From Bacillota bacterium (GTDB lineage Bacteria; Bacillota; SHA-98; UBA4971), in NCBI GenBank assembly GCA_012516125.1, contig JAAYXB010000001.1, positions 1-46,187 of the forward strand: a DNA stretch of 46,187 nucleotides, written 5' to 3'. A program made the position numbers and the translations under genes. Below the pieces are notes generated by a model. The model saw only the letters and a list, made by a program, of their open reading frames with translations. It was not told where the DNA came from and did not search any database. Shown here piece by piece: positions 10,784 through 40,266 of this stretch. The number at the start of each line of letters is the position of its first letter. Position 1 is the first letter of the stretch.

Positions 10784-10814
10784 GTTATTTACAAACCGCA
10801 TTTGTAGGTATAAG
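10784..10814 (+). promoter_or_regulatory. Promoter with palindromic operator for the MerR gene
   Basis: The palindrome TACAAACCGCATTTGTA (10790-10806; 6-bp arms, 5-bp centre) lies directly before a -10-like TATAAG (10809-10814). MerR proteins bind palindromes placed between -35 and -10 elements, so this is the likely autoregulatory site. The -35 is less clear (TTTACA overlaps the left arm). Its position also shows that translation must start downstream of 10815. Confidence 0.55.
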
Positions 10815-10856
10815 ATGTGGCCAGGCGGTGTTGACGAGCCGGGGGAGGTGCCTCGC

Positions 10857-11282
10857 TTGATTGTCGATGATGACGTGCCGGTCTACACCATAGGTGTCAT
10901 CGCCGGTCTTCTTCGTGTTCACCCGGAGACTCTCAGGATCTGGGAACGGCAGAAGCTCGTGAAACCGGCTCGCAGGAAGGGGCAACGCCTGTACTCCGCC
11001 AATGATGTCAGGCGGCTTAAATTCATTAGGTATCTCACTGATCACAAGGGCCTGAACCTGGCCGGTGTCAAGCAGGTTGTGGAGATGTATCCGTGCTGGT
11101 GGCTGGACAACTGCCGCGGCGGAACATCGACAGAGCCTGCGATGCGCACCAAGGCTTGCTGGAGGGAGGAGGGCACTTATTGCCACGTGGTGCTCGACAA
11201 GGCCGACCTGTGCGGCGGGTGCCCAATATACAAGAACCGGGCACGATGCGAGTCTTGCACGAGGCTGCAGAAGGATTCGTGA
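10857..11282 (+). CDS. Cysteine-rich MerR-family transcriptional regulator
   Basis: This DNA-binding regulator of about 141 residues has the MerR winged helix at its N-terminus: YTIGVIAGLLRVHPETLRIWE, then LYSANDVRRLKFIRYL. Its C-terminal half carries eight cysteines (CWWLDNC, KACW, TYC, DLCGGC, ARCESC), a pattern that could hold a metal or Fe-S cluster. The start is TTG at 10857, with GGGGGAGG eight bases upstream; an ATG at 10815 sits against the -10 box and is unlikely. The next gene is an Mrp/NBP35 Fe-S carrier ATPase 69 bp away. Redox or Fe-S sensing is inferred from cysteines and neighbour, not demonstrated. Confidence 0.8.
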   Translation: MIVDDDVPVYTIGVIAGLLRVHPETLRIWERQKLVKPARRKGQRLYSANDVRRLKFIRYLTDHKGLNLAGVKQVVEMYPCWWLDNCRGGTSTEPAMRTKACWREEGTYCHVVLDKADLCGGCPIYKNRARCESCTRLQKDS

Positions 11283-22509: not shown

Positions 22510-24396
22510 CTACCTCCACGCCAACCCCACAAACGCTGAGTTCCTCGCGAGCCTCGTAGCGCGGGTAGTAATCCCCATTTTCTCCCTCAGTCTTCGCTCC
22601 AACGAGTTCGCCGCATGCTCTCCTGATCGCGAGGACTTGGTCTCAAGGCCGTAGAATGTCATTGCCCCGGTGCGCGCGTTGACCTTCACGATGCCCCCAT
22701 CAAACTCCATCAACCTTTCGCCATCCCGAGTCAACCGGACAGAGGCAGTCAACACGAGGAAGCGAGAAACGCTACGTTCGTATCGACTGCTCTTCTGCAT
22801 CTCGCGGTTCAGCCTGTTTCGCAGTCTGACCAGACCCTCGAGCTCTGCCTGGAGGCTGCGCAAGCCAGGTTCCGAAGGCTTGCTCTTCCGTCGAACGATA
22901 TGTTTGATAAACGCAGTATCCAGGGTTGCACTGGAAGCCCATATTCTGGTCTGGTCGACAGAATCGTTTCCCGGAAACAGGCCAAGCCTCGAAAGTGGCC
23001 ACGCCGACAACTCAAGCCTTACATCTTGGTACAACAACGGGACCGCTTGGGCTAGGAGTGTGGCGTATATGCCATCGACGTCTTGCCTGCACAACAAACC
23101 GTATACGTCATCACTGGATTTCTCCCTGTAATCGAGTCTCTGCATAACCCACGCGATAAAGCGCCCAATCAATGCGATGGTCCCATTGCCGCGGGAGTAC
23201 AGATCGACAGTGAATTCGTCTGGTTCGATTCGTGCCTCGTGAAACCACAGCTGGTACGACAGTATACTGGCGCAGCCATCGTCTCTCATGACCCTCCGTC
23301 TCAATTCGGACTCAAGTCTAGCAAGTGGTCCGTCTATCGATACGAAATGGCTCCTTGTGGTTATGGACACAGCTCGGTTCAAGCAGTCTTCCTGCTCAAG
23401 GCGCAAAAGATCAAAGACCGTACCTATGTCGCTTTCCACCAACCAGCTGCGCAGGAGTTCGCCAGGCTGCTTTGCCTCGGCCAGCCTCTGATGCACAAGA
23501 GACGCAGTTATGGCCACGATCTTCCTACACTCGGGTCGGTGATAAAGATGCCAGTAGACCACGTGTTCGTACGACGATAGTACCTCGATGATCCGCTCTA
23601 GGTCACCAATAGCAAGTCCGTCGCTGTCACTCGCCAATCGCGTGATAACGACCCGAACCGGCGCGTCACAATAACTAGTGTCCAGGTTGAGATATGACAG
23701 CCTGCGGACTAGTTCATATAGGCGATGGATCTTCTCCCATCGAGGCAAGTTGCCGGCAGCGTCGGGAAGAAGCAGCCACCTGTAGAAGTCTTCGAGCACG
23801 TACTTGAGATGTTCAGGCGACTCATCTAGGACGGCCCACTGAGCTGCCTTTAGCAGACCCAGTACGCGGTTGACCCTTGCGTAATCCGCCGACCAGAGGT
23901 AGTCCGTAACGAATTCACCAAGTCTATCAAGCACGCTGTAAGAGGGTCCCGTCATGTCCAAAAGGCGTCGAAGCTCCCCTAGGGGTCTCTCTCGGTTTAC
24001 ATCCCACAGGTACCTTGCGACTCCCTTCTCGACAGCGAATGTGCCAGGAAGATGGCCTATATTCGACAGAAGAGCGGCACACTGGACAGCTGCAATGGCA
24101 GAAGAGAACTCTGCGCGTCCGATCTTGAACTGGGAGTTACCGCCGGGAACCTCGATGCGCGAAGCAACGTACAGCATTGACACTGTGAAGTCCCATCGAC
24201 TGTGGCTGATCCCCGGCAGAGCGCTCTCTAGCACGCCCACATGCCTGAGTTGCTTCAGGCGGCTCACTTCGCCTTTGGCTTGTAGTAGAGCAAAAAGGTC
24301 ATCAGCCGGGGGGTACAGGGGGAACCGAACTAGCCCGATATTGGGAACAGTGTGCTTGAGCGTCAGCATCCCCTCACCGTCCTTCGGCAGACTCAC
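22510..24396 (-). CDS. Unrecognised 628-residue protein with broken HD-like region and C-terminal PD-(D/E)XK-like motif
   Basis: I do not recognise this family. Residues ~60-125 resemble the HD fold of dNTP hydrolases: ISHSRWDFTVSMLYVA, then AALLSNIGHLPGTFAVE where active relatives have HDIGH-PF-H. The metal-binding His-Asp is Ser111-Asn112 and the last His is Phe120, so HD catalysis is unlikely. Near the C-terminus MEFDGGIVKVNARTG and FYGLETKSS give a D566...E585-x-K587 pattern, as in PD-(D/E)XK nucleases. The middle is helical and featureless. It is the last gene of the DISARM-like operon, 93 bp after the helicase gene. The start (GTG 24396 or ATG 24369) is uncertain. It occupies the place where DISARM systems often have the phospholipase-D protein DrmC. 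Confidence 0.75.
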   Translation of the reverse strand: MSLPKDGEGMLTLKHTVPNIGLVRFPLYPPADDLFALLQAKGEVSRLKQLRHVGVLESALPGISHSRWDFTVSMLYVASRIEVPGGNSQFKIGRAEFSSAIAAVQCAALLSNIGHLPGTFAVEKGVARYLWDVNRERPLGELRRLLDMTGPSYSVLDRLGEFVTDYLWSADYARVNRVLGLLKAAQWAVLDESPEHLKYVLEDFYRWLLLPDAAGNLPRWEKIHRLYELVRRLSYLNLDTSYCDAPVRVVITRLASDSDGLAIGDLERIIEVLSSYEHVVYWHLYHRPECRKIVAITASLVHQRLAEAKQPGELLRSWLVESDIGTVFDLLRLEQEDCLNRAVSITTRSHFVSIDGPLARLESELRRRVMRDDGCASILSYQLWFHEARIEPDEFTVDLYSRGNGTIALIGRFIAWVMQRLDYREKSSDDVYGLLCRQDVDGIYATLLAQAVPLLYQDVRLELSAWPLSRLGLFPGNDSVDQTRIWASSATLDTAFIKHIVRRKSKPSEPGLRSLQAELEGLVRLRNRLNREMQKSSRYERSVSRFLVLTASVRLTRDGERLMEFDGGIVKVNARTGAMTFYGLETKSSRSGEHAANSLERRLREKMGITTRATRLARNSAFVGLAWR

Positions 24397-24489: not shown

Positions 24490-27400
24490 TTACGCGAACC
24501 AGCTCTGATCGCTCCGAATCACGCGGGCAGATTCCTTACCCAGCAGGATTCTGGCAAGCCGGTAGAAGTGCCTCGCCATTGCTTCACGGTCGTCGAGGTC
24601 GGTGGCGGGTATCTCAAGTACTTCATAGCCCCGGGCGCGCAGCTCATCGCGGATCGCCCGGTCCCTCGCCGCTGTCTCAGGGTTGCCGTGAATGTGCTCA
24701 CTCAGGCCATCGAGATAGACGCACACCCCCAACTCGTACTCATCTTCCCCGGGGAAGAAGCAGTCCGGGACTGTGGAGCCAAGCGGCCGCCCAAGCTTGA
24801 TCTCGTATTGCCACTTGGGCTCGGGGAAACCTGCGCGCTCCAACAGACGGCGGAGGCGGGTCTCAGCCTCGTTGACGGGCATCGTTCTCCCCTTTGGCGT
24901 CTCAGCCGGAAGACGCGCCGGGATCTCGTGGAGGAAGGTTAGCGAACTCCCCAAAGTCCTCAACCGCTCATAGGCGACGTGGCGGTTGAGATGTCCGTGG
25001 TAGAACGCGTTTCGGAACGTTTGGAGGCAGTCTATGCACGACCGCCCACAGCCCGACGGGCATTTCTCCACCACCTCTGTGGCCGCCTGCGCCACCTCGG
25101 GCCAGCGCTCGCACGCCTGCTCGAGGAGGCCTGAGCCACCGGGCATCGGGTCATACAGTATCGCGTCGACGTCGTCCTGACCAGGGCGCCCCACTACGAG
25201 CACCTCGAGGTCATCCCTTTCCATCTCCAGCACCCGGCTCATCCCCACGCGGAGAGCCTCCAGCACTGAGTAAGCCTCCTCCCGCGTGGCAACAGCAGGC
25301 AGGCACATGGCGTCAGCCACCACATCAGCGAAGAACCCCACGTTTTCCACTTCTTCGCCGTAACGCTCCCTGTGTGCTCGCAGGAATTCCTCGAGCTCAC
25401 GAGCGGACGCCAGGGGAGACCGGCTCTGGCCTGTGACCAGGCTCACGGGATAACCCAGTCTCCCTGATGAGTGTACCAGCGGTGCGGCACCCACGTTCAC
25501 GAGTCTCAGGTGAACCCCGCGCCGTAAGGTCAGGTCACGCCCGCCCCATGAGAAACGCTTTCCCGGCCCATGCCTACCGGTTTCGTGACCGTAGATAACG
25601 ACCGGAAGCTGGAAACGATACTCCTCCTCATCGCTGATATGGGACCTGTGGACGAGCTCAACGTCACACACAGGGACGGCTTTGAGAGCAGCGCTGCCAA
25701 GGGCCGCAACAGCACCAGGCGCCGCTGTGCCAACCTCCGTCACCGACTCGCGCGCTGTGTCTACCTGGAAGAGGATTGGCTGCACAGGCTCAAGATGTAG
25801 GTACCGTGCCACAAACCTGTGGCCGTTCGCGTATATGAGGTTGCCGGGCACATATTCGCGAAGTGCGACCGCGGGCGGGCGCGGAAGGTCGAAGTCCCTT
25901 CCCCCCTCTGCATATCTGGGCACAATCGCCGTGCCTATGATGGAACCCGTCTCGAGCCCGTACCCTGGCAGGAATCCTTCCGAAGCAAGCACGGCGTAGG
26001 TGTTCGTGTCGTCGTATCCCTCGGCCTCGTGGCGCCGGCGTGGCACAATCCCCTTGTACCTCTTCACTAGCCGGTCGCAGCGTTGGTAGAGAGCGTCCTC
26101 TTCGGGATCGAGCGTGCCCTTGAGTCGGCGCATGCTGTCCAGATGAGCCATCTGGCTGCGCGCCCAGTCCAGGCGCTTCTTTAGGGTGCGGATGACCTCC
26201 TCAAGGCAGTCAGCCATGGCAAGGACCCTGCTACGTAGCGCTAGCTCCTCAACCACAGCAGCGTCCTCCTCAGGCCAGCTCCGCCCGAATGCAGCCCTTA
26301 CGTATTCGAGGAGGACCGCTTCGTGCTTCCTTATCACGTCCCGAAGAGGGCCAACATCAAATGGCTCGCTCCGGACGTGCCCGACCTCATCGAAGAGATA
26401 ATCCCGCACTCGCGCCGGGAAAGCCACTTGTAACGCACGTGCGACTTCCGCTCGGTCGTCCTCGCTAAGAGGGCTACTGCTCCGGGCGAGCTGGTGGAGC
26501 TTAGTGAGGACGGCTGCGTGGACGTGTTTTGCCACCATGAGCTCGTTGCGCATGTTGAAGCGTGGCGGCTCAACCCGGCCCTCGAGCAGCTTGAGCGGGT
26601 CTGCGAAGTACGCCCGATCATGATCAACCGCACGCGCGTACGTGATGTTGACTGCAAGCCGATGCCTCCGGCCCGCACGGCCTGCACGCTGCCAGTAATT
26701 CGCCGGAAGAGGCGGGACGTTGCGCATGAGGACGGTATCCAGCGAGCCTATATCGATCCCGAGTTCCAGGGTAGGTGTGCACACCAGCGTGTTGACTGTC
26801 TCACCGTCGCCCTTAAAGAGACGTTCCAGACGCTCCCGCTCGTCCGCGGGCACCTGGGCCGAATGCTCTGCTGGCCGCACCATCGCAAATCCCTGATCGA
26901 TCGCAGCAAGGTCATAGTTGTCAGGATCCGGCGGCTCAAACACGAGCGTTCCGTCGCAGCGCCAGGCAAGGCAGCGCTTGCCCGGAGTCGGACGCACCTG
27001 AGTACGGCGGCACTTCCGGCATCTCCACACTCCATTGTGCGGCGAGATCCTGAGGAGGTCGGCATCGATCTGGCGTACACCAGCGCAGTGTCTCAAGGCA
27101 TTCCCTCTGGCATCGGTCAGAGTCACCGGTACTAAGATCTGCAGCTCCTTGGTCAGCAGGTCCCATAATCCCCTCACGAAGTCCTCTACGTGGTCATTGG
27201 GCACACCCCAGGCCCGCGCCGCTTGTTTGACGATGGTATCCCCGACCGGGCTGAGCCACTGCGCTACGCGCCCGCGGTCGTCATCAGCCTCCCTGAAGAG
27301 CTTTATGCCCCTCGGGACTCCCTGCAGAAGGGGCAAGTACCCCTGTTGGATCTCGCGGTCGCCATCCATCCAGAAACGTGAGAAGATCTGACCGTCACGG

Positions 27401-29895
27401 TCCAGGAGATACATCTGACGGCGGTAGTTATCGAGAAGAGCATTAATGCCTTCCACGAGCTCCGCAGGCTCTATACCCAGCCTGCTCGCCCATTCCCTAA
27501 TGAAAGCGAGCTCAGGTGTAAGGCCATGGTATTCTATCTTGATCCGGCCCCAGGGCTCAAGGCCGACTCTCTGCCTGACACCAGTCGCGACCTCCCTCAA
27601 TACCGCGATACGCAGGAAGTACCTGCGTTCTTGGGCGTGTCGGACTCCCTCGGCTTCCTTCCTGGCCACCTGCCATACCTCTGGAATAAGGCTTCTGGAC
27701 AGCTCATCGTCGTCATTGAGCTTCTCGTCCAGATGGGCTGTAAGGTCGCCTACTGATATGGGACCCTCTGCGATCTTCTCTGCCATTAGACTGCGCAGCC
27801 GGAAACGACGCGCGTGATCTTTCATCCAGCCGGCTTGGAAAGCTGCCTCCTGGCGATTGTCGGCGAAGACCAGCAGGCGGCGCCGATCAGCGTGATGGAT
27901 CATGTTCTGGGCCAGGACGTGCACGTCGGATACGCTCACCGCGCGCACCGGGCGCGCCGGCTCTCTATAGCCTCCCGGCCTGTCGCGGCCTGGCGTCCTG
28001 CAGGCAAGGCAGGACACCAGATAGCCCCGATGCCTTTCGTCCTGTTCTACGGCAAACAATGGCACGAGCTCCCCTTCGCGCCCGCACGCGTCGCAACGGT
28101 CAAGGGCCTCGGGATGAAGCGCCCCGCAGTAGCGACACATGAAGACCTTGTGTGTGCGTGGCACCTCACCGTCCTCTTCGTCTGAGAGCGCGAGACGGTC
28201 CAGGAGCACCACCCGCGTGCCTTCCTGCTCGGGTCCAAGCGCAGGCCAGACTCTGCGGCTATCCACCGCGTCTCCACCTCCCAGCCCGTTCGGGGCTATG
28301 ACGAGGTCCTTCACGTGGTGGACGAAGTAGTGCTGGCCGCAGGTGTTGCAGGTCATGACCGGCAGGCGGAAGAGGCTGTCCTCCCCTTGAGTGGCGAGCT
28401 CGTCTTCGGCGGAAAGCCACAGCCGTGGGCCGGGCTCCCCCTCCGGAAACGTGACCACCGCACCGCCCACGCCGCGAACAAAGGCATGGATTACCGGCCT
28501 CAACAGCGGCCGGCCTTCCTTGCTGGACGCAGCGCCGAGAGCAAGCCAGGCAAGCACCTCCTCTTCAGGCACAGCCCGTCCCACGCGATCCTGGAGTTCT
28601 GTTACAAGATCCGTGAGCGCTCTCGGGCGAGACAGAGCCTCGCTGATCTGGTAGCATAGTTCGTTCTGGGCAAGGAGGGTGTAGAGGTCCTCCTGCCAGT
28701 GCGCCGCGTCGATCCTTGCTCCCGTCATTGCTTGGACCAGTGTACGCACCATGCGACCGGCATCGTCGCCAGCATCTATCGCATCAATGATGTTCTTGAG
28801 CTGGACGGACGGATCCCCGGGCAGCGGGGAGGGCAGATGCCTCACGGCCGCCCATTCATCCGGCTCATACTCTTCCCCCACGAGGGACACGTCCTCGCTC
28901 GAAACGCCGAAGAACCGCGCCGCGAACGCCTTTGCACCCTCGCAACCGTGGACAGGGTCCGCCAAGGTTGCTGATGTGGCAACGTGGGCCACTTCACCGA
29001 CACTCTTGCCGCAAAACGCACGGAGCCGCCGGACGAGGCACGCCGTCTCCGCGCCTGCCGCACCCCCGTACGTGTGTGCTTCATCAAACACCAGAAACTC
29101 AAAACGCGCGCCATCGAACAGCTCCACATCAGCGTGACGGGTCAGAAGCAGCTCTAGTTGCTTAACGTTGGTGAGCAGAATGCGCGGCTGCATCCCGGGC
29201 GTGCGCATTTCCTCGCGGGAGGCGCGCTCCTCGGGCGGGCGCACCGGGACGTTTCGGCGCTCCTCCCTCACCTGAGCAAGCTTTGCGAGGTAAGCTTCCC
29301 GGGAGGAACCAGGAGGAAGGCGCTCCCCCGACACGTCGGCTGCGCGTTCTGGGGTCTTGCCCACATACATCCCGAAGGGGATCCCCGTGCCTGCCAGTAT
29401 CCCGCGCAAGCGCCCCAGCTGATCCTCAGCAAGAGCGTTCATCGGATATACAATGACGGCGACGATCCCGGGGGCGGCCCCTTCGTCTCGAAGTTCAAGA
29501 CACCGGCTGATGATGGGATAGAGGAAACACTCCGTCTTGCCCGACCCGGTGCCAGTGGAGATGAGCGTCGTCTTCCCGGCACGAATGGATCTGATAGCCT
29601 TCTCCTGATGCCCGTAGAGGCGTTTGTACGGGATGAGGTTCGCCATGAACGGATGAAGAAAGCCTTCGGAGACGAGACTTGACACGCTTGCCCCCATGCG
29701 GAAGGAGCGCGATAGGCTGACGTAGGGGCCCTTGAGAAGAGGCGTCTGTCTCGTTCTCTCTAGTGAGAGCAGCTCCCGTAGCTGGCGGTGGAGAAGCGGA
29801 TCGGCAAACGCATAGGTGGTCAACTGGTAGCGAAGGAAATCCCCCACGACCTTCTCGGTGAAGCTGACAGGGTTGATAGCCACCTCATAACTCAC
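24490..29895 (-). CDS. Giant DEAD-box helicase with DUF1998 region and C-terminal Vsr/DUF559-like nuclease domain (DrmA+DrmB-like)
   Basis: This 1801-residue superfamily-2 helicase has Walker A TGTGSGKT (114-121), DEAH (271-274), SAT (308-310), and helicase C motifs TLELGIDIGS and YWQRAGRAGRR near 1070. Zinc-ribbon pairs lie between the helicase parts (MTCNTCG, CRYCG..CDACG, CRKC). The DUF1998-type cysteine cluster CPSGCGRSCIDCLQTF is near 1612-1627. The last ~130 residues read VPDCFFPGEDEYELGV, VYLDGLSEHIHG and RDELRARGYEVLEIPATD, like DUF559/Vsr endonucleases. In DISARM the helicase DrmA and DUF1998 protein DrmB are separate; here one chain holds both plus a nuclease-like tail. The start is GTG at 29895, 17 bp after the methylase stop. 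Confidence 0.88.
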   Translation of the reverse strand: MSYEVAINPVSFTEKVVGDFLRYQLTTYAFADPLLHRQLRELLSLERTRQTPLLKGPYVSLSRSFRMGASVSSLVSEGFLHPFMANLIPYKRLYGHQEKAIRSIRAGKTTLISTGTGSGKTECFLYPIISRCLELRDEGAAPGIVAVIVYPMNALAEDQLGRLRGILAGTGIPFGMYVGKTPERAADVSGERLPPGSSREAYLAKLAQVREERRNVPVRPPEERASREEMRTPGMQPRILLTNVKQLELLLTRHADVELFDGARFEFLVFDEAHTYGGAAGAETACLVRRLRAFCGKSVGEVAHVATSATLADPVHGCEGAKAFAARFFGVSSEDVSLVGEEYEPDEWAAVRHLPSPLPGDPSVQLKNIIDAIDAGDDAGRMVRTLVQAMTGARIDAAHWQEDLYTLLAQNELCYQISEALSRPRALTDLVTELQDRVGRAVPEEEVLAWLALGAASSKEGRPLLRPVIHAFVRGVGGAVVTFPEGEPGPRLWLSAEDELATQGEDSLFRLPVMTCNTCGQHYFVHHVKDLVIAPNGLGGGDAVDSRRVWPALGPEQEGTRVVLLDRLALSDEEDGEVPRTHKVFMCRYCGALHPEALDRCDACGREGELVPLFAVEQDERHRGYLVSCLACRTPGRDRPGGYREPARPVRAVSVSDVHVLAQNMIHHADRRRLLVFADNRQEAAFQAGWMKDHARRFRLRSLMAEKIAEGPISVGDLTAHLDEKLNDDDELSRSLIPEVWQVARKEAEGVRHAQERRYFLRIAVLREVATGVRQRVGLEPWGRIKIEYHGLTPELAFIREWASRLGIEPAELVEGINALLDNYRRQMYLLDRDGQIFSRFWMDGDREIQQGYLPLLQGVPRGIKLFREADDDRGRVAQWLSPVGDTIVKQAARAWGVPNDHVEDFVRGLWDLLTKELQILVPVTLTDARGNALRHCAGVRQIDADLLRISPHNGVWRCRKCRRTQVRPTPGKRCLAWRCDGTLVFEPPDPDNYDLAAIDQGFAMVRPAEHSAQVPADERERLERLFKGDGETVNTLVCTPTLELGIDIGSLDTVLMRNVPPLPANYWQRAGRAGRRHRLAVNITYARAVDHDRAYFADPLKLLEGRVEPPRFNMRNELMVAKHVHAAVLTKLHQLARSSSPLSEDDRAEVARALQVAFPARVRDYLFDEVGHVRSEPFDVGPLRDVIRKHEAVLLEYVRAAFGRSWPEEDAAVVEELALRSRVLAMADCLEEVIRTLKKRLDWARSQMAHLDSMRRLKGTLDPEEDALYQRCDRLVKRYKGIVPRRRHEAEGYDDTNTYAVLASEGFLPGYGLETGSIIGTAIVPRYAEGGRDFDLPRPPAVALREYVPGNLIYANGHRFVARYLHLEPVQPILFQVDTARESVTEVGTAAPGAVAALGSAALKAVPVCDVELVHRSHISDEEEYRFQLPVVIYGHETGRHGPGKRFSWGGRDLTLRRGVHLRLVNVGAAPLVHSSGRLGYPVSLVTGQSRSPLASARELEEFLRAHRERYGEEVENVGFFADVVADAMCLPAVATREEAYSVLEALRVGMSRVLEMERDDLEVLVVGRPGQDDVDAILYDPMPGGSGLLEQACERWPEVAQAATEVVEKCPSGCGRSCIDCLQTFRNAFYHGHLNRHVAYERLRTLGSSLTFLHEIPARLPAETPKGRTMPVNEAETRLRRLLERAGFPEPKWQYEIKLGRPLGSTVPDCFFPGEDEYELGVCVYLDGLSEHIHGNPETAARDRAIRDELRARGYEVLEIPATDLDDREAMARHFYRLARILLGKESARVIRSDQSWFA

Positions 29896-29912: not shown

Positions 29913-32900
29913 CTAGCGGCGCGTTCGTCTTTTCTTCGGCCGAATGCTGGCCGAGTTCTCACCAAACAGGTTCTTCTGACCCGAGGGAAACAACGTAAGC
30001 TGGGTGCGCCCCACGACTGTGCCTGCTCCGTAGGGAGGATGCGACTCAGCAGCAAGTGCTGGCCACTCTGCCTCCCCAGAGACTTCGGAGGCTTCGGAGC
30101 GGGCTTCCTCCGTGGGAGTTGCTGAGAGTCCGTCGGCCTTATGGCCTCGCGCGGCATCAAGCTCTTCCATCAGCTTCTTGTAGCCTTCCTCTCCCAGGAG
30201 GTTGCGGGCGTGCAGCCGGCACTCCTTCCAGGACTCTTCTGGAGAGGCCTCCAACTGCCAAGGCAGGAACCGCTCCCCCAGACGCTCGCGAACGGGCTGC
30301 GCCCGCTTCGCCCGTTCATCGTGTCCAAGGCCGAGATCAGCGAGCCTCAGCGTCTCGGGGAGCATCCAACCCTCGCCGCCGTTCATGCTGCAGAATACCT
30401 CGATGCCTTTATCCCTCTCGCCTTCAGAGGCGATAATCTCCTTCAAGTCCCTAAACGCCGCCAAGGTCAGCATCGTGTGTCTTAACTCAGGATCCTTGTC
30501 CTTGTCCACGCGCCAAAAGCCCTTCGGGTCAAGCATTCGTGTGAAGGTCTTGTCTTGGAGCCTCTCGGCAGGATAATCGCACTCACGCAGTATCCAGGCC
30601 AAGTTGTCCCAATCAAGCCCATAGAGCTCCGCCACTATAGCGTCGAGGATGCAGCGAAGGCGAAGGCGCTCGTGAGGCGTAAGGGCCCACCTTCTGTGCC
30701 AGTGACCAGACGGACGCGCTGCCCCGGAGAGTGCCTCGGTGCCAATAAGGCGTATCCATGAGTCCGCAAAGACCTTAGATACTAACGCAAGAGGCGCACT
30801 GCAATTAGCGATGAGGGGTGCCATTCTGAATAGGTCAGCACGAACAGCTATCTCTTCAAGAACTGCCCAAATGAGAGAATTGCCTCCCAAACGAAATCGG
30901 ACCAGATAGTCAAATGAAAACGAATTGGCAATACCAACGAGAGTTGTCACGGCCCCCACCGAAAGGGGTGTGGGAGTCAACGTCGGCGACTTGTGGCCGC
31001 ATGGAAAACCACTAGCAACAGCTGAGATCACCGTTCGAGTATTCGTGGTGGAAGTTACGTCCATCAATACCGCCTTTAGAGGTTTGCCGGGACACTGTTC
31101 CAAATACATATCGCGAGCCATCAGGAACTGTGGCTCTATGACCTTCGCCTCCCACGGGATCTCCCGCCACACCGCGCTGCGGCCTTTCCCCCGGACCCAG
31201 CCCTTCTGGCTGAAGTCAAACTGCCCGATCATCCGGCCCTCATAGAGCGGCAGTGCGACATCCTCGATTTCGTCTTCGTGGATCCACGCGGTCCCGTCCA
31301 CGGAAAGGATGACGCCGGGCTCCATCTCCCACCGTGGTCCGGCCGGGCGGCCTTCGTGCCAGCCGCCTTTGAGCCAGCGGCCATATTCGTCGGGCCGGTA
31401 CCCCTGAGCCTCCCACCACGGGCGCGGGGGGAACAACTGCGAATCGTTCGTCATATCGAACTCGCGGGCATACTTGATCTGCCACCCCCCGGGCCCCTCA
31501 TCGCCGAGAAGAACAGAGTTTGCATAGATCTTCTCAAGGATCTCCAGGTCGCGTCTGTTGCGGATCTCGAGTATGGCCCGGCTGCCAGGGCTGAAGCGTT
31601 CCACCTGTGCCCGCGCGTAAGGAACGGCGTACCGCTCGCCCTCCTCCCAGTCGGCGAGGTTCCTGCGCATGAAGGCGGTCTGGATGGATTCTGTCTCTCC
31701 GCCTTTCTGCACAATGATCGGGCAGAACTTGAAACGGCTATCAATGTCAAAGACCTTGTCCCTGTTCTCGAACCCGAACAGCCACTCCCATCGACAACGG
31801 GTAAGAAAGAGCTTCCTGAGGTCAGACGCACCCTTGTCCGAGTACACCCCGGAAGGCACCACAAGGCCCATCCGCCCTCCGTCGCGGAGAAGAGCATGTG
31901 CTTGCTCCAGGAACATCTTGTACGTATTGATGTCCGCTGAACCTTGATGTCTGAACGCGTGCTCTGGGTCAGCATAGCCCGTTCGCGCAGCGCGTCGCGC
32001 CCGCCATTCGTCGAGCAAGCGGCTGTCGCTTCTGCCGAGGCCAAGAGTGGCGCTTCCTTCCTCGCCATCGCCAAAGGGGAAGCCTGCGTTCTTTACCCAG
32101 TTCGAGAGAGCTTTGAGCCTGGCACAATACACCAACCAATCTTGCTCATCGTCAGCGCTGCGCTGGAAGTACTCTGACTGCTTGTCGAGGGCCTCCTGCT
32201 TGCCGTAGGTCCGATAGAGCGGATCGATGTTCGAGAAGAACTCCTTGGAATTCGGCTTCTGAATCTCCCATGGTGGATTCCCGACCACGGCATCGAACCC
32301 GCTGCCAGGCCGGACGAAGACATCGGGGAACTCGAGTTCCCAGTGAAAGAACCGGTATTCGCTGGCAAGCCGCCTCGCGAGGTCGCGTGTTGCCCTTGGG
32401 GGGTCCGTGAAGTTCAGCGGCGTCGGGGCGTCCTCCAGGCGGTCCGCTGGCCAGAACCAGATGGCGCACCAGACGTCGAAAGCCTCCTTGAGACGCTGGA
32501 ACGCGGAGTTACCCAGGATCCTGTCACGGTAGAAGGCCGCGCGCTCCTCTGACTCGTGCACCGCGAAATCGTGCATTCTCTCCAAGAGAGCCGTCGCCTC
32601 GTCGTGCACCGCCTCAGGAGCCACCTTGAACTCCGGAAGCGGAAGCACCAGCTGGTAGCCGCGGCTCTCAAGCCATGTCTTGAGCTCCCCCTTTATGCGT
32701 TCGTTGCGGAACTTCTTGATGGCTTTCGTCCAGGCCTCCTTCTCAAAATGGACACCACGCGTATGGTTGCTGTCGCCGCCTTCCCGCTCCCAAGCAAGGA
32801 CGGGGTAATCCCGGAATCGGTCGAACCAGCAACCCACAAGGGAGTTGCCCACCTTCACCTTATGGTCAAGGAAGCTGAATGGGAGTGCAGGGTCCATTGT

Positions 32901-35252
32901 CTCGATCCACAAGGCTACTCGCGCAAGCTCCACGGCGAGCGGGTCTATGTCCACTCCATAAATGCAGCGTTCCACCACATATCGCTTGAGACGTGCCCGC
33001 AGCTGCGCTTCGAAGCCGTCTGAATCAGGGCGGCACGGTAGGAGCTCCTCCGAAAGGCGTCCGGACTCAGGCCGCCCTTCGGCCAGCGTCACAACGGCTT
33101 CCTCACCGTGGCTGCGGATGCGTCCGTGATAGTGAAGGCTTTCCACCAGCGCATCTGTGAGGAATCTGAGCGTGGCTATGAGAAACGACCCTGATCCGCA
33201 CGCCGGGTCGCACACCTTGAGGGCAAGGATTTCTTCAGGTCTTCTCGGAATCCATCGGGAAGCCGAAGCGTTCCCGTTCTCGCCAGCGGGTCCTCCTGGG
33301 CCAATCAAGGCCTCGTACGCAAGGGGCCGTAGGGTTCGGTGGACAGTTGGGACCGCGAGCTGTGGGCGGGTGTAGAAGGTCCCCGCACCCTTGCGGGTAC
33401 CTCCCCATCGGACCAGATACCATTCGCCCGGCAGTACCACACGCGCCACAAGACGTCTCGCGGCCCGCGCGCAAAGCGCCTCATACTCGCGAAGCGCGGC
33501 CGGGCTCAAGGACCGCGGCTTGTGGACGAGCCTGCCTGCCTTCACCGCCCGCAGCGCCCATCTCCACGCCCGCTCAGTAGCGGCACGCCGGGCATCATCG
33601 CCCGCGCCACCACCCGGCAAGGCCCCGGGCGTCTCCTCGATGTCGGCAGGCTCTCCGCTCTCCTCCGAGTCGTCGCCCTCGGGTCCGGCATCCTCGTCAT
33701 CGGGTGCGCTCTCGTCGGTATCTTCGCCTCCCGCCTCCTCGTCCCCGGTGCCCCCCTCGCTCTCCTCGCTCACGATGCGCCTGGTTCTTTCCTTGGACTT
33801 CTCAACCAGCCTAGCTATGGCCTTGTCATCTAGAGCCTCAAGACGAGAGAGAGGCAGCGCCGGTTGGTCGCCGAGGTTCAGGAAGATGATTGGGTCGCCG
33901 TGGGAGGCGCGGCGCAGCTCAAAGTCGAGAAGCCCCTCGTAGAGCATTCCTACGTATTCGGACGAGAGATCCGAGAAGTCCACGGGAGCATCTATCCACA
34001 TAGAGTTCCTGCCCTGGCGGATCTTGACGCGGCTGTGACAGAGAAGGGTGAGCATCTCCTGGACCGCTGCGTCGCTCGGCGAGTTCTCTGGGTCTTCGAA
34101 AACGCTCAAGGCTCTGCGGATAGGATCGTCGGAGCCTGGATCGCCCGGCTCGAACAGATTACCTGCATAACGCGGGACAGGCAACGCCTCGTGAGGAGAT
34201 CCCTCGTAAACGAGCCTGAAGAGAGCGAGAATCCTCGGCCACGCGTTGAACTGATGGCGCAGCCTGTCAGAACCTGCGCCTCCTCCGGAGCGGTCGAGCA
34301 TTTCACGCAGGCCGCCAAGCCCATATGAGCCGTGATAGATGGGATTGTCCCGGGGCAGGAGGTCTCTAGCCTCAGCGAAGAGCGCGACGACCATGCGCAT
34401 GACCACACGAGTGGCCGCGTGGTAGATGTCGGCAGGCTTTACGCCCAAGTTTGCGTCTTCAAGAGCATGTGAATGCTCGCGGATGAGGACTTCTACAGCC
34501 TGCCGGACACGCTCGCCCAGCGCAGTTGAAAGTTCCGCCTGACCTTTACGAGAAGCGGCGATGGCAGCCAGAAGCGCGGAAGGCTGCCCATCCGCACTCG
34601 GTACGAGCGCATCCCGACCCAGGAGCGCCCTGAGAGCGGTGACCTGAAGCCCCGTTCTGCCTTCCCCGAACCATAGGGCCGTATCCCATTCGGCGAAGGC
34701 ATCGTGGTCAAGCCCGGCATAGACTAGGCGCCATTGCCGCCCGTTTGTGAGGAGCGCGATTCTCTGGCCCTTATGCCGGAGCCATTCGATCACCCTGGAA
34801 GTCGTGCGCCGGCCTCGCCCGGTCCCGAGTCGAGCCGCCCTTTCCGACTCCACAAATACAGGGAGAAGCGCCCCGCGCGGCCCCTTCCAAAGGCGACGAG
34901 GCTTGATAACCTCCCCTGTCATCCCCTGGCTCGACCATTCAGACGGGACGTCCCCGCCTTTGAACCAGCGCCCTTTCGTGGCCGCGCCGGACGCGTCGTT
35001 CTCCAAACCGAGCACTTCCTCAAGCACGGTGTCGAGAAGGCTCGCCAGAGACTCAGCACGACCGTCCGATGCGCGCATTATGTCGCGACGGAGGCGGTCC
35101 TCCAGGTGGCGCGGCAACGGCGCGAGGTCCGGGGGGAAGTTCTGGGCTAGGTGCGAGGGCGCTATGAGCAGCCCTCCGTGCTTAAGCGATGCCCACCACG
35201 CATAGCTTTCGTCAGCAGTCTGTCTCAAGGCCGCAGCCTCGCTCGCCGCCAT
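29913..35252 (-). CDS. Giant N6-adenine DNA methyltransferase (Eco57I/DrmMI-like)
   Basis: This protein of about 1779 residues would mark host DNA in a DISARM-like system. The SAM-binding motif I DPACGSGSF is near residue 682 and catalytic NPPW near 992 (VVGNPPWEIQK), the order of gamma-class adenine methylases. The ~480-residue N-terminal part resembles that of Eco57I and PglX-like enzymes (IEWLRHKGQRIALLTNGRQW). An acidic linker rich in Asp, Glu and Gly (bases ~33600-33790) precedes the methylase core. The C-terminal ~600 residues probably include target recognition (MGLVVPSGVYSDKGASDL). I choose ATG 35252 because GGGAGG is eight bases upstream and overlaps the end of the SNF2 gene; a GTG at 35261 is too close to it. 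Confidence 0.9.
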   Translation of the reverse strand: MAASEAAALRQTADESYAWWASLKHGGLLIAPSHLAQNFPPDLAPLPRHLEDRLRRDIMRASDGRAESLASLLDTVLEEVLGLENDASGAATKGRWFKGGDVPSEWSSQGMTGEVIKPRRLWKGPRGALLPVFVESERAARLGTGRGRRTTSRVIEWLRHKGQRIALLTNGRQWRLVYAGLDHDAFAEWDTALWFGEGRTGLQVTALRALLGRDALVPSADGQPSALLAAIAASRKGQAELSTALGERVRQAVEVLIREHSHALEDANLGVKPADIYHAATRVVMRMVVALFAEARDLLPRDNPIYHGSYGLGGLREMLDRSGGGAGSDRLRHQFNAWPRILALFRLVYEGSPHEALPVPRYAGNLFEPGDPGSDDPIRRALSVFEDPENSPSDAAVQEMLTLLCHSRVKIRQGRNSMWIDAPVDFSDLSSEYVGMLYEGLLDFELRRASHGDPIIFLNLGDQPALPLSRLEALDDKAIARLVEKSKERTRRIVSEESEGGTGDEEAGGEDTDESAPDDEDAGPEGDDSEESGEPADIEETPGALPGGGAGDDARRAATERAWRWALRAVKAGRLVHKPRSLSPAALREYEALCARAARRLVARVVLPGEWYLVRWGGTRKGAGTFYTRPQLAVPTVHRTLRPLAYEALIGPGGPAGENGNASASRWIPRRPEEILALKVCDPACGSGSFLIATLRFLTDALVESLHYHGRIRSHGEEAVVTLAEGRPESGRLSEELLPCRPDSDGFEAQLRARLKRYVVERCIYGVDIDPLAVELARVALWIETMDPALPFSFLDHKVKVGNSLVGCWFDRFRDYPVLAWEREGGDSNHTRGVHFEKEAWTKAIKKFRNERIKGELKTWLESRGYQLVLPLPEFKVAPEAVHDEATALLERMHDFAVHESEERAAFYRDRILGNSAFQRLKEAFDVWCAIWFWPADRLEDAPTPLNFTDPPRATRDLARRLASEYRFFHWELEFPDVFVRPGSGFDAVVGNPPWEIQKPNSKEFFSNIDPLYRTYGKQEALDKQSEYFQRSADDEQDWLVYCARLKALSNWVKNAGFPFGDGEEGSATLGLGRSDSRLLDEWRARRAARTGYADPEHAFRHQGSADINTYKMFLEQAHALLRDGGRMGLVVPSGVYSDKGASDLRKLFLTRCRWEWLFGFENRDKVFDIDSRFKFCPIIVQKGGETESIQTAFMRRNLADWEEGERYAVPYARAQVERFSPGSRAILEIRNRRDLEILEKIYANSVLLGDEGPGGWQIKYAREFDMTNDSQLFPPRPWWEAQGYRPDEYGRWLKGGWHEGRPAGPRWEMEPGVILSVDGTAWIHEDEIEDVALPLYEGRMIGQFDFSQKGWVRGKGRSAVWREIPWEAKVIEPQFLMARDMYLEQCPGKPLKAVLMDVTSTTNTRTVISAVASGFPCGHKSPTLTPTPLSVGAVTTLVGIANSFSFDYLVRFRLGGNSLIWAVLEEIAVRADLFRMAPLIANCSAPLALVSKVFADSWIRLIGTEALSGAARPSGHWHRRWALTPHERLRLRCILDAIVAELYGLDWDNLAWILRECDYPAERLQDKTFTRMLDPKGFWRVDKDKDPELRHTMLTLAAFRDLKEIIASEGERDKGIEVFCSMNGGEGWMLPETLRLADLGLGHDERAKRAQPVRERLGERFLPWQLEASPEESWKECRLHARNLLGEEGYKKLMEELDAARGHKADGLSATPTEEARSEASEVSGEAEWPALAAESHPPYGAGTVVGRTQLTLFPSGQKNLFGENSASIRPKKRRTRR

Positions 35253-35257
35253 GGCCA

Positions 35258-38200
35258 TCACCTCCCATCGTCAGGCAGCCTTATCTCAACAGCAACTGGG
35301 AAAACCGATGCCCTCCCGCGCAGCGTGTATCTCTTGGGAATTGTGTACTTGAGCACTCTTTCGCGTTCGCGCTGTAGCTGCTGGCGAAGCTCCTCATAGT
35401 GCGCGCGGCGTCGCCGGATCTCTTCCTCCTTCTCGGCGATGGAGCGGTCTATTTCCTCGAGCCGGCGGTCCTGATCGTACAACACTCCTTGATTGCGCTC
35501 GCGCTTGAGTTGTTCGATCTCTTTCTCTAGCCGAGCTATGGTCGTGCCCTCGATGAGAGCAGAGATCTCGCCTTGCCTGCTCAAGAAGCGATCGTTCTCG
35601 GTGCGCAGGGCGGACACTCGCTCGGCATCCAACGTGCTTGCGAGGCGCTCAGTTAGCTTGCTCGCAAGGTCCCTCACCAAAGCCTGGACATCCGATGCGA
35701 TCTCGTCCCAGACCTGCCTCGCTCTGTCAACGTCCTCCGGCGCGGGCGGGCCGCACGCTATCCGGAGGTCTTTAGCTGGCACGTGGGGAAGAGGCTCACC
35801 AATGCTCCCCCCGCAAACGGGTATCCGCAGCGTCCGAACCCAGTGATGAAACGTCTCCCGTAACTCGTTTACGGCAAGTTCCTCCACGGTCAGGAGCACG
35901 AGGGCGTCCGCGCCCGCCGGCACCGGGCCACGCTTCACAGTCCAGCGGGTAGCTCTCCCTGCGGCCCCCGGGAAGCGGGCCTGGGCAAGGGTAGTGAGCG
36001 CCCGGCTCACGAGCGGGTGACCGAGATGAAGCAGCACCGAGTCTTTCTCGGGCCTAAAGACGGGACGACCCTCCACTTCACGGACCAGCTTGGACGCATC
36101 GAAGAAAATCGCGGGAAGCGCCCCCTTGGGTGAATCACGTAAGCCGGACCGGCCACGATCCAACCGCAAGGAATCATCAACAAGAGCGTTCCACTCGGCC
36201 GGGATCGGAGCTTTCAGGCGGAAGCGCCCACGCTCGTCGGGACCGTCAAGTCGTGGTCGGCCCGCCCTGAGGCCGAGAGCTACATCGAGGGTCTCGCGCA
36301 GGCTATCGGCGTCAAGATCCACCTCGTTCGCGAGCTGACGCAGGTATGCGAGGCCGTTAGCGCCCGACTCCACCTCGTCGCCGGCGCCCGGCAATTCCGC
36401 CCGCCCCTTTGCAAAAGCGAGTTGTCCATCCAGCTCTGTACGCACTTGGTCTGCGTCATCCCCGGCGATGAGCCTCCGCTCAATGGCAGAATCGAATACC
36501 TGCCCTGTTGAGCCCAGGTCTTCACGGATTGTATGGACCTTCCGGATGACATAGGCCAGGAACGCTAGGTCAGCATCGTCATCGGTGGCGAAGTGGTACA
36601 CGACCACGTCCCGGGCCTGTCCGTGCCTGTCAAGGCGTCCGTTTCGCTGTTCGAGGCGGGCAGGATTCCAGGGTACGTCATAATGGAGTATGTACCGCGC
36701 CGTCTCCTGGAGGTTCAGACCTTCCGCAGCGGCGTCAGTTGCAATAAGGACCCTCACGGGGTCAGCAGGATCGTTGAAGGCCGCCTTGATGAGCTCGCGC
36801 TCGCCCTCGTCCATCCCACCCAAAAGCACTCTCACGGATCCTTCCTCGGGATACACAGCCTTCAGCCTACGCGCAATATACTCAAGGGTGGTCTTGTACT
36901 CCGTGAAGACCACCAGGCGCTCGTCTGGATGGCCCCGCAGCGCGTTCGCGATTAGGCCGCAGAGTGCATCGAAGCGGGCATCGCTGCGAGGCGTCATCTC
37001 GGCCGCTCGATCGCCCGCTGGGCTGTCCGTGACGTCAAGCCCCAAGTCCCGGAGGGCACGATCGATCGCTTTGATCTCGGGCTCAAGACGTTCAGCAAAG
37101 GGCTTCAGCCAGGCGCCGACCGTACGCGCAGCATGCGCCCCGCGCGCTTCTGCCTCCATGTCGTCGCCTGTCTCCTCACGCACCGATCGTCTTGCCGCCT
37201 GCACCTCGTCGACATCGGCGGGCTGCGCGTCTGCCAGCCCTTCACAGTAACGATGCCACGAGTCGGCAAATGCCACCGGACATGATAGGAGGCGCTTCCC
37301 CAGGACCTCAACGGCAAACGATCCCGCTACCTGTTCAGCCCTGCGGGCCGAGGCCACGAGCGACCTCACCTTGAGTCGAAAAGCTGCGAAGGCTTGCGAC
37401 AAAGTTTGCTCTTCACGGCTAAGGGAAAGCGGCAGCGCGACCAGCTTTCGCTCGCAGAACTTCGGCGGGCTCGTCCTCGCGTTTATCTCGCTCTTTAAGC
37501 GTCGGACCACGACTTGCGATACGCGGCGCTTGTCCGCTTCTGTTAGTGGCTCACCCTTCTCGGTGAATCGAGCGGGATCGAGGCACTCGAGGAGGCCCGT
37601 AAAGCTTCGCGTATGCCCGTTGTGCGGCGTTGCTGTGAGAAATAGCTTGTGTTCAAAGTAGGGAGCGAGCACCCTCAGCATTCGCGTAAGGTCACTCTCC
37701 TCCCCAAGCGGGGCGGGCGCGAGATTGTGTGCCTCATCAACGATCAGGAGGTCCCAAGGTAGATGAGGTGAGCCCTCTGGTACGCGGCACGCCGACCGGA
37801 ACTGCTCGAGGACGTCTGGCTGTTTGAGATAGTCATATGAGCTGATGATTCGCGGGAAGGTGCGCCAGGGATTGGCGTCCATGCCCAAGCGCTTCTGAAG
37901 CGCGTGGGTGGAGGCACGGTCGACAACGTCGAACGGCAGCGCGAACTTGTCTTGCATCTCTTGCTTCCACTGGAGACGCAGTGAGGCAGGACACAGCACG
38001 AGGACCCGCCGCACCCGGCGCCGGGTGAGCAGTTCCCGCAGGATCAGCCCGGCCTCGATCGTTTTGCCGAGGCCCACGTCATCCGCCAGGAGCAACGCCA
38101 CTCGCGGCATGCGCAGGGCCTTGAGCAGGGGGACAAGCTGGAAATCCTCAATCTGCACGGCGCTGTGAAAAGGCGCAGTGAGAGGGCACGGTGCCGGGGA

Positions 38201-38722
38201 CTCTTTGGAGCTGGACGACTCGAGGCCAGGGTTGGAACCGTCGAGGCCGTCGAGGCTGATGTAGGGAGAAAGTGCGGTCCACCGTGCGGCTCGGACGAGA
38301 GCGTCCAACTCATCCGGCGCCATAGCGGCGTCGCGTTCGACGTCCGGCAGCGCCGTGGGCTCGAGCAGACGCGCTCCAGGCTCGCGCTCCCAGATGAGCT
38401 GGTCTTCCTGGGGGGAGCCCCCGTCCAGGTACTCCACGGTGACCAGGTGGAATCGCCCTTCGGTTAACCCATCGAAAGGCTCAACCGCCGAGACGAGACC
38501 CCGGCGATTTCGCACCGTGGCGAGCATGCCAATGCGAGGCGGCCCCGACGGAGACAGGGACACACCGCGCGGAGCCGCAGTGCACATTGTCGGCGCGGTC
38601 GGCACGGTTGGCACAGTCGGCGCATGCGAGTCCGCGGCATCGACGGACAGCCTCTCATTCACGCCATCGGGCGGCATCAACCCTGTGCACTGGTCAGGAT
38701 GGGCAGATGGAGAATCGGCCAA
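35258..38722 (-). CDS. SNF2-family helicase (DISARM DrmD-like)
   Basis: This ~1154-residue ATPase is the first gene of the defence operon. Walker A is ADDVGLGKTIEAGL (near 217-230, Asp where Glu is usual), then WDLLIVDEAHNLAP (DEAH near 332), LTATPHNGH, and in the C-terminal lobe VLIATDAAAEGLNLQ and QRNGRLDRHGQ. The protein ends with a coiled coil of ~70 residues (IARLEKEIEQLKRERNQG onward) before a short basic tail. The N-terminus has a Pro/Thr-rich near-repeat (PTVPTVPTAPT). The start is probably TTG 38722, seven bases after GAGGGG; an in-frame GTG three codons earlier overlaps that site. SNF2 + N6-methylase + DUF1998 helicase is the class 1 DISARM set. Confidence 0.9.
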   Translation of the reverse strand: MADSPSAHPDQCTGLMPPDGVNERLSVDAADSHAPTVPTVPTAPTMCTAAPRGVSLSPSGPPRIGMLATVRNRRGLVSAVEPFDGLTEGRFHLVTVEYLDGGSPQEDQLIWEREPGARLLEPTALPDVERDAAMAPDELDALVRAARWTALSPYISLDGLDGSNPGLESSSSKESPAPCPLTAPFHSAVQIEDFQLVPLLKALRMPRVALLLADDVGLGKTIEAGLILRELLTRRRVRRVLVLCPASLRLQWKQEMQDKFALPFDVVDRASTHALQKRLGMDANPWRTFPRIISSYDYLKQPDVLEQFRSACRVPEGSPHLPWDLLIVDEAHNLAPAPLGEESDLTRMLRVLAPYFEHKLFLTATPHNGHTRSFTGLLECLDPARFTEKGEPLTEADKRRVSQVVVRRLKSEINARTSPPKFCERKLVALPLSLSREEQTLSQAFAAFRLKVRSLVASARRAEQVAGSFAVEVLGKRLLSCPVAFADSWHRYCEGLADAQPADVDEVQAARRSVREETGDDMEAEARGAHAARTVGAWLKPFAERLEPEIKAIDRALRDLGLDVTDSPAGDRAAEMTPRSDARFDALCGLIANALRGHPDERLVVFTEYKTTLEYIARRLKAVYPEEGSVRVLLGGMDEGERELIKAAFNDPADPVRVLIATDAAAEGLNLQETARYILHYDVPWNPARLEQRNGRLDRHGQARDVVVYHFATDDDADLAFLAYVIRKVHTIREDLGSTGQVFDSAIERRLIAGDDADQVRTELDGQLAFAKGRAELPGAGDEVESGANGLAYLRQLANEVDLDADSLRETLDVALGLRAGRPRLDGPDERGRFRLKAPIPAEWNALVDDSLRLDRGRSGLRDSPKGALPAIFFDASKLVREVEGRPVFRPEKDSVLLHLGHPLVSRALTTLAQARFPGAAGRATRWTVKRGPVPAGADALVLLTVEELAVNELRETFHHWVRTLRIPVCGGSIGEPLPHVPAKDLRIACGPPAPEDVDRARQVWDEIASDVQALVRDLASKLTERLASTLDAERVSALRTENDRFLSRQGEISALIEGTTIARLEKEIEQLKRERNQGVLYDQDRRLEEIDRSIAEKEEEIRRRRAHYEELRQQLQRERERVLKYTIPKRYTLRGRASVFPVAVEIRLPDDGR

Positions 38723-39193
38723 AGTAGACACCCCTCGGCATGAGCCCGTGTGGCCTGAGACTCCCAGACTTGCCAGTAAGTATTAGACAAATGGCACTAG
38801 CTATCCTGCCCATCCTGCGTCGTTCTGCACGATTCGTCACCGACCATCATCGCATCCGCTCACCGTGGACATCGGACGCGAAACGTCCCCTGCTCGGGAT
38901 CCGTGTCCCTCTAGGCCTTTCGTCCTTCGTGTTCTGTTCACTCTTGCCATTGAGGTGATATGCTGACGTTAGCGGCTCCCCTTTTCTACCTCCAGCTTGT
39001 CACGCTTTGCCTGTTGACGGTTGCTCACCAGGACATACCTTGGTGCTCGCTTCGCCGTCTCCGGCCTCTTTCTACCGACACGTCCGCCTCACCACAACCG
39101 ACCTGGAAGCCGCTACCCCAAATTCCGGGCCCCTTGGCAGACGCTCGTCCACTGAGTCGACCGGCTGTTGGAGAGCGCATTGGCGTCCGCAGC
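38723..39193. other. Leader/intergenic region before the defence operon
   Basis: About 470 bp between the antitoxin stop and the SNF2 start. No gene is seen. The defence-operon promoter should lie here on the - strand; AATACTTACTGGCAAG-like AT-rich sequence occurs around 38775-38790, but I cannot fix -35 and -10 boxes. Confidence 0.4.
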
Positions 39194-40204
39194 CTACTCG
39201 ATAGCTTTCAGGGTCATGGCGTACTCATAAGATATCGGCTCACCGAGCTGCGTTTCTGTGTAACCCCTCTCCTTGTGGCTCATCTTTCCGAGCACAGTAG
39301 GGCTGCAACTCTTGAACTTCCGGAGGACGTCTTCGAGAACCTTCAGCTCCTGAGGGCTAAACAAATCGGCCTCGAACTCCGCAACAGGTTCGACCGTCTC
39401 TCCTTCGACCTCGCCGTAACTCTGCGGCTTGAGGGCAATGAACTGCATCCGCTCCATGTAGGCCATGACCAAGTCGTGGGCTAGCGGAACAGGCCCAAAG
39501 TAGTTATGGCAGTATACCGCGCCGCTCATGGAGCAAAGCGTCCGTCTATAGCAGAGGAAATCCGAATACCACAGCATCTTGAGCAACTTCGATTTCGCGA
39601 TGCCGGGGCACTTGGCCGCAAAGAAGACCGCCATTTCGGCGAGTCTGTCCAGATCAGGCCTACGCCTTCCCCGTAGCGACTCTCCATGCCGCGAGTACAG
39701 GCTTAGCAGGATCCGCGAGATCTTCTCTGGCACACTATCTGCCCGGCAGGAACCGAGTGCCTTCTCCACCCGCTTTCTCTCAAGGTTTCCCAGCTTAGAA
39801 GCAGATGCTTCAAAGAGACTGCGCGCGTAAGCCACATCCTTGCTGAATCGACAAAGCTGATCATTATGGGCGACGCTGGGGAGCGACCCAAGTTCGTATC
39901 TCGCTATCGTGGCAGGGCTCCATCCCAGAAGGGCAGCTAGACCCCGCTGTGAGAGACCGTATCTCTCCCTAATCTTCTTGATCTCTTCCGGTCCCAACAG
40001 ACCCTTTTGCTTACGATACTGAGAGTAAGCTAGAGACAGGTTTTCACCGTCTACAGCCTCATCGAATACATCAGTTCCACAAGTTCCGCACGTCAAAACG
40101 TTGGCCATGATGGTGATGGGCTCGCCCTTTACTGGATATGTCTCCTCCTTCCGGATCTTAACGAATTCCCTTTCCGTTTCGCACTTTGGACAGAAGCCCT
40201 TCAT
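39194..40204 (-). CDS. Antitoxin with YgiT-type zinc finger, HTH and Panacea/DUF4065 domains
   Basis: This 336-residue three-part protein is the predicted antitoxin of the small gene just upstream. Residues 1-45 hold a zinc finger (FCPKCETE and LTCGTCGTDVF). An Xre/MqsA-like helix-turn-helix follows near 75-110 (RERYGLSQRGLAALLGW, SPATIARYE). The last ~170 residues are a Panacea/SocA (DUF4065) domain (KLLKMLWYSDFL, then YFGPVPLAHDLV). The start is ATG 40204 with AAGGAGG seven bases upstream; an in-frame start seven codons earlier lies on the far side of that site. MqsA-type proteins bind the toxin and also repress their own promoter; Panacea is a known neutralising domain. The gap to the toxin gene is 62 bp. 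Confidence 0.82.
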   Translation of the reverse strand: MKGFCPKCETEREFVKIRKEETYPVKGEPITIMANVLTCGTCGTDVFDEAVDGENLSLAYSQYRKQKGLLGPEEIKKIRERYGLSQRGLAALLGWSPATIARYELGSLPSVAHNDQLCRFSKDVAYARSLFEASASKLGNLERKRVEKALGSCRADSVPEKISRILLSLYSRHGESLRGRRRPDLDRLAEMAVFFAAKCPGIAKSKLLKMLWYSDFLCYRRTLCSMSGAVYCHNYFGPVPLAHDLVMAYMERMQFIALKPQSYGEVEGETVEPVAEFEADLFSPQELKVLEDVLRKFKSCSPTVLGKMSHKERGYTETQLGEPISYEYAMTLKAIE

Positions 40205-40266
40205 GGTTTGTCCTCCTTCGTGCATGGTTCCTCGACTGGTCCGTTGACGCGAACTTCCCCATCGCT

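Follow-up and report, generated by a model that had tools for sequence, protein, structure and literature searches.

A gene on the minus strand of the window (the whole 46,187-nucleotide stretch of Bacillota DNA analysed here), at positions 22510..24396, encodes a protein in which a catalytically dead SAMHD1-like body is followed by a predicted PD-(D/E)XK nuclease, and it stands beside a set of ARMADA-like genes. The reading preferred here, to which a probability of about one half is assigned, is that this pseudoenzyme–nuclease fusion serves as a nucleotide-gated second-line effector backing a modification-based defence. SAMHD1 is known in animals as an antiviral enzyme, and HD dNTPases related to it deplete nucleotides as anti-phage effectors. 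If the preferred reading is true, the same fold has been turned from effector to sensor, with its pocket kept, its chemistry dropped and a nuclease gained, and ARMADA and systems like it would gain a testable infection cue, a change in the nucleotide pool. In the open-licence literature searched, no paper was found that joins a metal-free SAMHD1 pocket to a nuclease or describes an HD- or SAMHD1–nuclease fusion, a weak absence; neither an HD domain nor SAMHD1 is mentioned in the main text of PMC12458937, PMC12839542 or PMC10853773.

Counted from its GTG, the reading frame comprises 628 codons and is open throughout, and the residues that had been singled out in an earlier, sequence-only reading (S111-N112, H65, H115, D566, E585 and K587) are all encoded at the positions given there. 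Translation probably begins instead at residue 10, the ATG at 24369, which would yield a protein of 619 amino acids; AAGGA sits 10 nt upstream of this ATG, homologues begin at the residue-10 equivalent in the 16-sequence alignment A4, and residues 1-8 are disordered in the AlphaFold2 model. A gap of ~93 bp separates the fusion gene from the end of the helicase gene on the same strand (24490), and a search of this gap for promoter- or terminator-like sites found none, which makes read-through from the operon plausible. The GC content of the fusion gene is 55%, compared with 62-63% for the armABC genes, and it may have a separate origin, perhaps as a later independent insertion.

The N-terminal two thirds of the protein (residues 9-455; 23032..24372, minus strand) is, as modelled, a complete SAMHD1-type fold that extends well beyond a small HD block. 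The AlphaFold2 model based on A4 (pLDDT 79, pTM 0.82) retrieves SAMHD1 from the PDB with Foldseek (E 4e-6), and VIA-align superposes residues 11-448 of the model on residues 115-582 of SAMHD1 (6u6z_D) with a Z-score of 19.2, 344 residues aligned and an rmsd of 3.4 A. Profile comparisons agree, as hhalign matches the N-terminal profile to eight bacterial SAMHD1-like proteins with E 1.9e-7 and hmmsearch finds 2q14 with E 5e-4. The sequence-only reading had made an HD-type helical core a test of its proposal, and the predicted structure contains one; the extent of 40-135 that it gave to the HD-like domain was far too short, the real extent being ~9-455. An HD protein of the HD-GYP or Cas3 kind was considered and rejected, since SAMHD1 tops both fold and profile searches. 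The protein shares with human SAMHD1 and the bacterial SAMHD1-like dNTPases (EF1143, 2o6i; 2q14) the same fold over ~440 residues as well as the residues of the nucleoside pocket; SAMHD1, on the other hand, has four metal ligands and H215, which the fusion protein lacks while carrying an additional predicted nuclease at its C-terminus.

The metal ligands of SAMHD1 are H167, H206, D207 and D311 (PMC7045340). In a joint alignment these positions are changed in all members of the family, H167 to F/Y, H206 to S/A/G/Y/W, D207 to N and D311 to R, and the window protein has F70, S111, N112 and R231 in their place. The equivalent of H215 is an invariant F. It had been proposed earlier that SN in place of HD signals a probable loss of hydrolase chemistry, and this is borne out by the replacement of all four HD metal ligands; hydrolysis of dNTPs by the fusion protein is expected to be absent. 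The substitution lies in the motif S111-N112-I-G-H115 (24052..24066, minus strand), and a sequencing slip or recent decay was rejected as its cause, given that the N is found in 16/16 aligned members. H115, the equivalent of SAMHD1 H210, is equally present in 16/16, and the retention of this histidine was called correctly; H65, which had been named along with it, is neither a metal ligand nor conserved in the family.

What has been kept is the set of residues which in human SAMHD1 contact the dNTP (PMC7045340): the equivalents of Q149 (Q/H), L150 (L/V), R164 (R), Y315 (Y/F), D319 (D), Y374 (Y) and H210, with H210, D319 and Y374 invariant and Q149, L150 and Y315 nearly so. All of the following lie on the minus strand. 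R67, equivalent to R164, is retained just ahead of F70 where the metal histidine H167 has been lost (24187..24198); R231, Y235 and D239 (23680..23706) occupy the positions of D311, Y315 and D319, the R and D being invariant and the tyrosine position Y or F in the 16 members; and Y285 (23542..23544), which matches Y374 of the base/deoxyribose pocket, is invariant in 16/16. The placement of R231 opposite D311 is the weakest of these column assignments, as it follows from the ungapped reading of R-x3-Y-x3-D against D-x3-Y-x3-D from the Y315/D319 anchors, a spacing adopted since the MAFFT alignment has a gap immediately before these anchors, opposite D311. Taken at the level of the aligned residues, the chemistry has been lost selectively and the ligand pocket retained, the pattern that marks a pseudoenzyme turned receptor. 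An engineered SAMHD1 variant, H206R/D207N, is dead and has yet been used to capture bound dNTPs (PMC7045340), and the D207N change is natural in the fusion family. The dead pocket would be a candidate for continued binding of a (deoxy)nucleotide or some similar small molecule, in which R231 at the metal Asp position could perhaps neutralise phosphate in the metal's stead. The triphosphate contacts equivalent to K312 and probably R366 are not kept, and with the loss of the H215 equivalent this means that the ligand may be something other than a canonical dNTP.

The same losses at K312, R366 and H215 lend some weight to a somewhat unlikely alternative, according to which the SAMHD1-like body senses no small ligand at all and is a nucleic-acid-binding or oligomerising platform that docks the nuclease on ssDNA or RNA arising in the infected cell. 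Among the top structural matches, several are forms of SAMHD1 with oligonucleotide bound (6u6z, 6u6x, 8tdv, 8d9j), and the allosteric sites of SAMHD1 accept oligonucleotides (PMC7854603); the conserved residues of the family nevertheless cluster in the nucleoside pocket, where they would be superfluous for a pure platform.

The C-terminal region (residues 456-628; 22513..23031, minus strand) probably contains a PD-(D/E)XK nuclease with a core at ~510-628, a prediction based on its motif, its topology and weak in-register profile matches. The predicted active site D566...E585-x-K587 (22636..22701, minus strand) is invariant in 15 aligned C-terminal domains. Modelled separately, residues 456-628 reach a pLDDT of 77, and two models agree on the secondary structure alpha-(5 beta)-alpha-beta-beta, in which the first helix is long, D566 falls between strands 3 and 4, and E585/K587 stand at the end of strand 5. 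Judged on the secondary structure of these two models, the order corresponds to the alpha-beta-beta-beta-alpha-beta core of PD-(D/E)XK enzymes. The earlier suggestion that D566, E585 and K587 mark a nuclease core has therefore gained ground, with the pattern conserved in distant relatives and the alpha-beta order as expected. Of the known nuclease families, NERD shares with the fusion C-terminus the E-x-K register, the D and the following N, all in register in an hhalign match with a marginal score (E 0.0014), and HSDR_N_2 shares the E-x-K register, again at a marginal score (E 0.0011); the hhalign probabilities for these two mutually unrelated families are only 18-21%, and a negative control gave E 0.4. 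A PDB fold search with the C-terminal domain alone returned chance matches only (Z <= 3.2). The PD-(D/E)XK fold is very diverse, so the missing PDB match neither supports nor refutes a nuclease.

The fusion belongs to no family on record, in that no family model in Pfam, NCBIfam or PADLOC matches it. Searching ~400 genomes of the phylum returned one clear relative (36% identity, in a 661-codon frame) and two that are more remote; below them came ordinary SAMHD1-like HD proteins, with values between 1e-5 and 1e-3, an early pointer to the right superfamily. A search with a four-member alignment added relatives, and the six-member alignment A2 detected 15 loci in 84,980 species genomes and 3 in IMG/VR, where single-sequence scans of the species-genome and viral contigs had found zero relatives. 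The A2 loci come from Bacillota, one Desulfobulbaceae MAG (Desulfobacterota) and two Planctomycetota MAGs. A tblastn search with the window protein gave one plasmid match, one with the relative P0003 against plasmids and phages gave none, and 16 further genomes from the same class do not carry the fusion gene. With duplicates collapsed the count is 21 distinct loci, among them the window and a plasmid of Peribacillus, and the ~20 relatives with both features constitute a family of pseudo-dNTPase–nuclease fusions. Across the 16 sequences of A4, N112, G114, H115, T119, F120, R231, D239, Y285, E564 and D566 are invariant and R67, Y235, E585 and K587 nearly so, with E585 and K587 present in every member long enough to include them. 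Weak scattered matches of relatives to PDC-M38B (E 0.005, one member) and YqaJ (E 0.08, one C-terminal domain) were not used. The reading frame of one relative (L049, Gracilibacillus) is broken, and another (L023:8147-12533, genome G307) is interrupted by an IS66 element with transposase ORFs at 8903-11240; neither sequence was repaired.

The three genes upstream of the fusion gene in the window, likewise on the minus strand, make up the ARMADA set of an SNF2 protein (ArmA), a PglX-like methylase (ArmB) and a YprA-like helicase (ArmC) (PMC12458937). The ArmC-like YprA-family helicase (24490..29895, 1801 aa) carries DEAD, Helicase_C and MZB/DUF1998 domains in a single ORF; profile matches identify the protein of 29913..35261 (1782 aa) as an ArmB-like adenine methylase of the PglX/DrmMI/type IIG kind, with a match to DrmMI; and the ArmA-like SNF2 helicase (35258..38731, 1157 aa), of the DrmD/BrxHII (RapA-like) kind, scores above the NCBIfam cut-off for DrmD and overlaps ArmB by 4 bp. 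The A-B-C order has been described for ARMADA type II and, within type I, for many systems of archaea and cyanobacteria (PMC12458937). The same SNF2-methylase-YprA order occurs on a Haloquadratum plasmid and on a Synechocystis plasmid, whose helicase is 53% identical to the ArmC-like protein over 94%. A DISARM class 1 system is excluded because helicase and DUF1998 form one ORF (DrmA/DrmB unsplit) and the next gene encodes no PLD protein (DrmC). In type II ARMADA the gene after ArmC is the RelE-GajB ArmD (PMC12458937); here the gene at that position is not ArmD but the fusion gene. The operon thus agrees with ARMADA in gene set and order and differs in the gene after ArmC. The position after ArmC would be a possible slot for exchangeable effectors. 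The C-terminus of ArmC reads in its sequence as a Vsr-type nuclease, for which phmmer found no match in the PDB and the Pfam scan gave none either. Situated 463 bp before ArmA is a gene for an MqsA zinc finger–HTH–SocA/Panacea protein (39194..40225, minus strand; profile matches), a possible member of the operon; its product could be an operon regulator or an antitoxin, with no obvious toxin.

On the plasmid of Synechocystis sp. B12 (CP101713.1), where the annotation breaks the SNF2, methylase and helicase genes into many fragments, an unrelated 334-aa ORF (L097:20569-21573) follows the ArmC-like helicase; its 'ELADNIVWLDEPLIVYQLKER' stretch resembles another restriction-nuclease motif, which suggests that different effectors occupy the position after ArmC. 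Elsewhere in the window, positions 8194-10341 (plus strand) encode a CHASE4-HAMP-GGDEF-HD protein of 715 aa, an ordinary HD-GYP-type signalling protein unrelated to the fusion.

In the mechanism proposed here, the fusion gene would act as a second-line effector behind a modification-based defence, in this case the ARMADA-like operon. The occupancy of the ligand pocket or the oligomeric state of the body would control the nuclease, which would be restrained in the healthy cell and released once the first line has been disabled, or the nucleotide pool altered, by a phage. We infer ligand binding and gating as much as the substrate and its cutting, the role in phage defence and the dependence on the neighbouring genes. 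The logic would resemble that of PrrC beside PrrI: PrrC senses dTTP and is restrained by an R-M system (PMC3710099). PrrC and RloC beside type I R-M systems combine, as proposed here for the fusion protein, a nucleotide-sensing part with a nuclease as a second line, whereas PrrC itself consists of an ABC-ATPase and a HEPN RNase and has no domain in common with the fusion protein. ABC ATPase and HEPN domains were sought in the latter and are absent, and a PrrC-like anticodon nuclease was rejected. Clover CloA and Sp dGTPase share the HD dNTPase-type fold with the fusion protein and are anti-phage. CloA is an HD-fold dGTPase activated by dTTP (PMC12265719); it is thus an active enzyme and itself the effector, whereas in the fusion protein the HD part is dead and the predicted nuclease would be the effector.

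Defence or R-M genes neighbour the gene at 11-13 of the 21 distinct loci, a descriptive association that supports the earlier suggestion of a defence-effector context; three other loci lie on short contigs. HMM-verified neighbours are type I R-M methylase and restriction genes (L022, L050 and L059), a ResIII-Eco57I fusion (L064), SIR2 with a DSR2-like protein (L049), AriAB (L051), a PDC-M01A/Septu-like ATPase (L020), an AriA/Gabija-like ATPase with a restriction enzyme (L063) and a restriction-type protein (L054). Likewise HMM-verified is an Eco57I/IIG-like methylase at L062, akin to the window ArmB (E 2e-31), which overlaps the relative by 8 bp. Inspection by eye adds Dcm, Vsr, SIR2 and HerA together with a GHKL ATPase and a Z1-type helicase in a large island (L023), and a methylase remnant (L053). 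No defence gene was found near the relatives at L045, L052, L055, L057 and L044, the last of which lies at a prophage/serine-recombinase end. The neighbourhood of a DUF1998 helicase, which the sequence-only reading had put forward for homologues, is found in the window and is just one among several types.

The recurrence of adenine methylases next to the gene (type I at L022, L050 and L059, Eco57I/IIG-like at L062 and L064, ArmB in the window), together with the overlap at L062, could also point to a constitutive restriction nuclease subunit that neighbouring modification systems guide to unmodified DNA, with the pseudo-HD body as a mere scaffold that senses nothing. We consider this unlikely: those systems already have nuclease or translocase subunits of their own, and the relatives at L055, L057 and L052 have no nearby methylase, so that the protein is no fixed subunit. 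That the gene is mobile-element cargo outside phage defence, engaged for example in anti-restriction or element maintenance and merely collected in islands, is highly improbable. Prophage genes and recombinases of the serine or tyrosine type do adjoin it at L022, L044/L066, L054 and L020, three matches lie on viral contigs, and it is missing from the 16 further genomes of its class; but defence genes travel likewise, and the adjacency to R-M and ARMADA-like genes recurs in unrelated phyla. The preferred reading of a nucleotide-gated effector can be widened to a new, widespread family in which a dead, metal-free SAMHD1 reads the dNTP pool or a defence nucleotide and directly gates the fused nuclease, which would serve as an interchangeable second-line effector of ARMADA, type I R-M and other modification systems, a proposition put forward tentatively, as plausible rather than probable.

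Two of the neighbourhoods merit a remark in their own right. At L049:5645-9324 a SIR2 protein (556 aa) is followed by a 663-aa protein that matches the C-terminal half of DSR2, and judging by these matches the pair is possibly a split DSR2-like system. At L064:2788-3828 the relative is preceded by a methylase-like ORF of 346 aa, and a 93-aa ORF upstream of the L053 relative (L053:9482-9763) resembles an N-terminal remnant of it, as if that relative had outlived its R-M partner.
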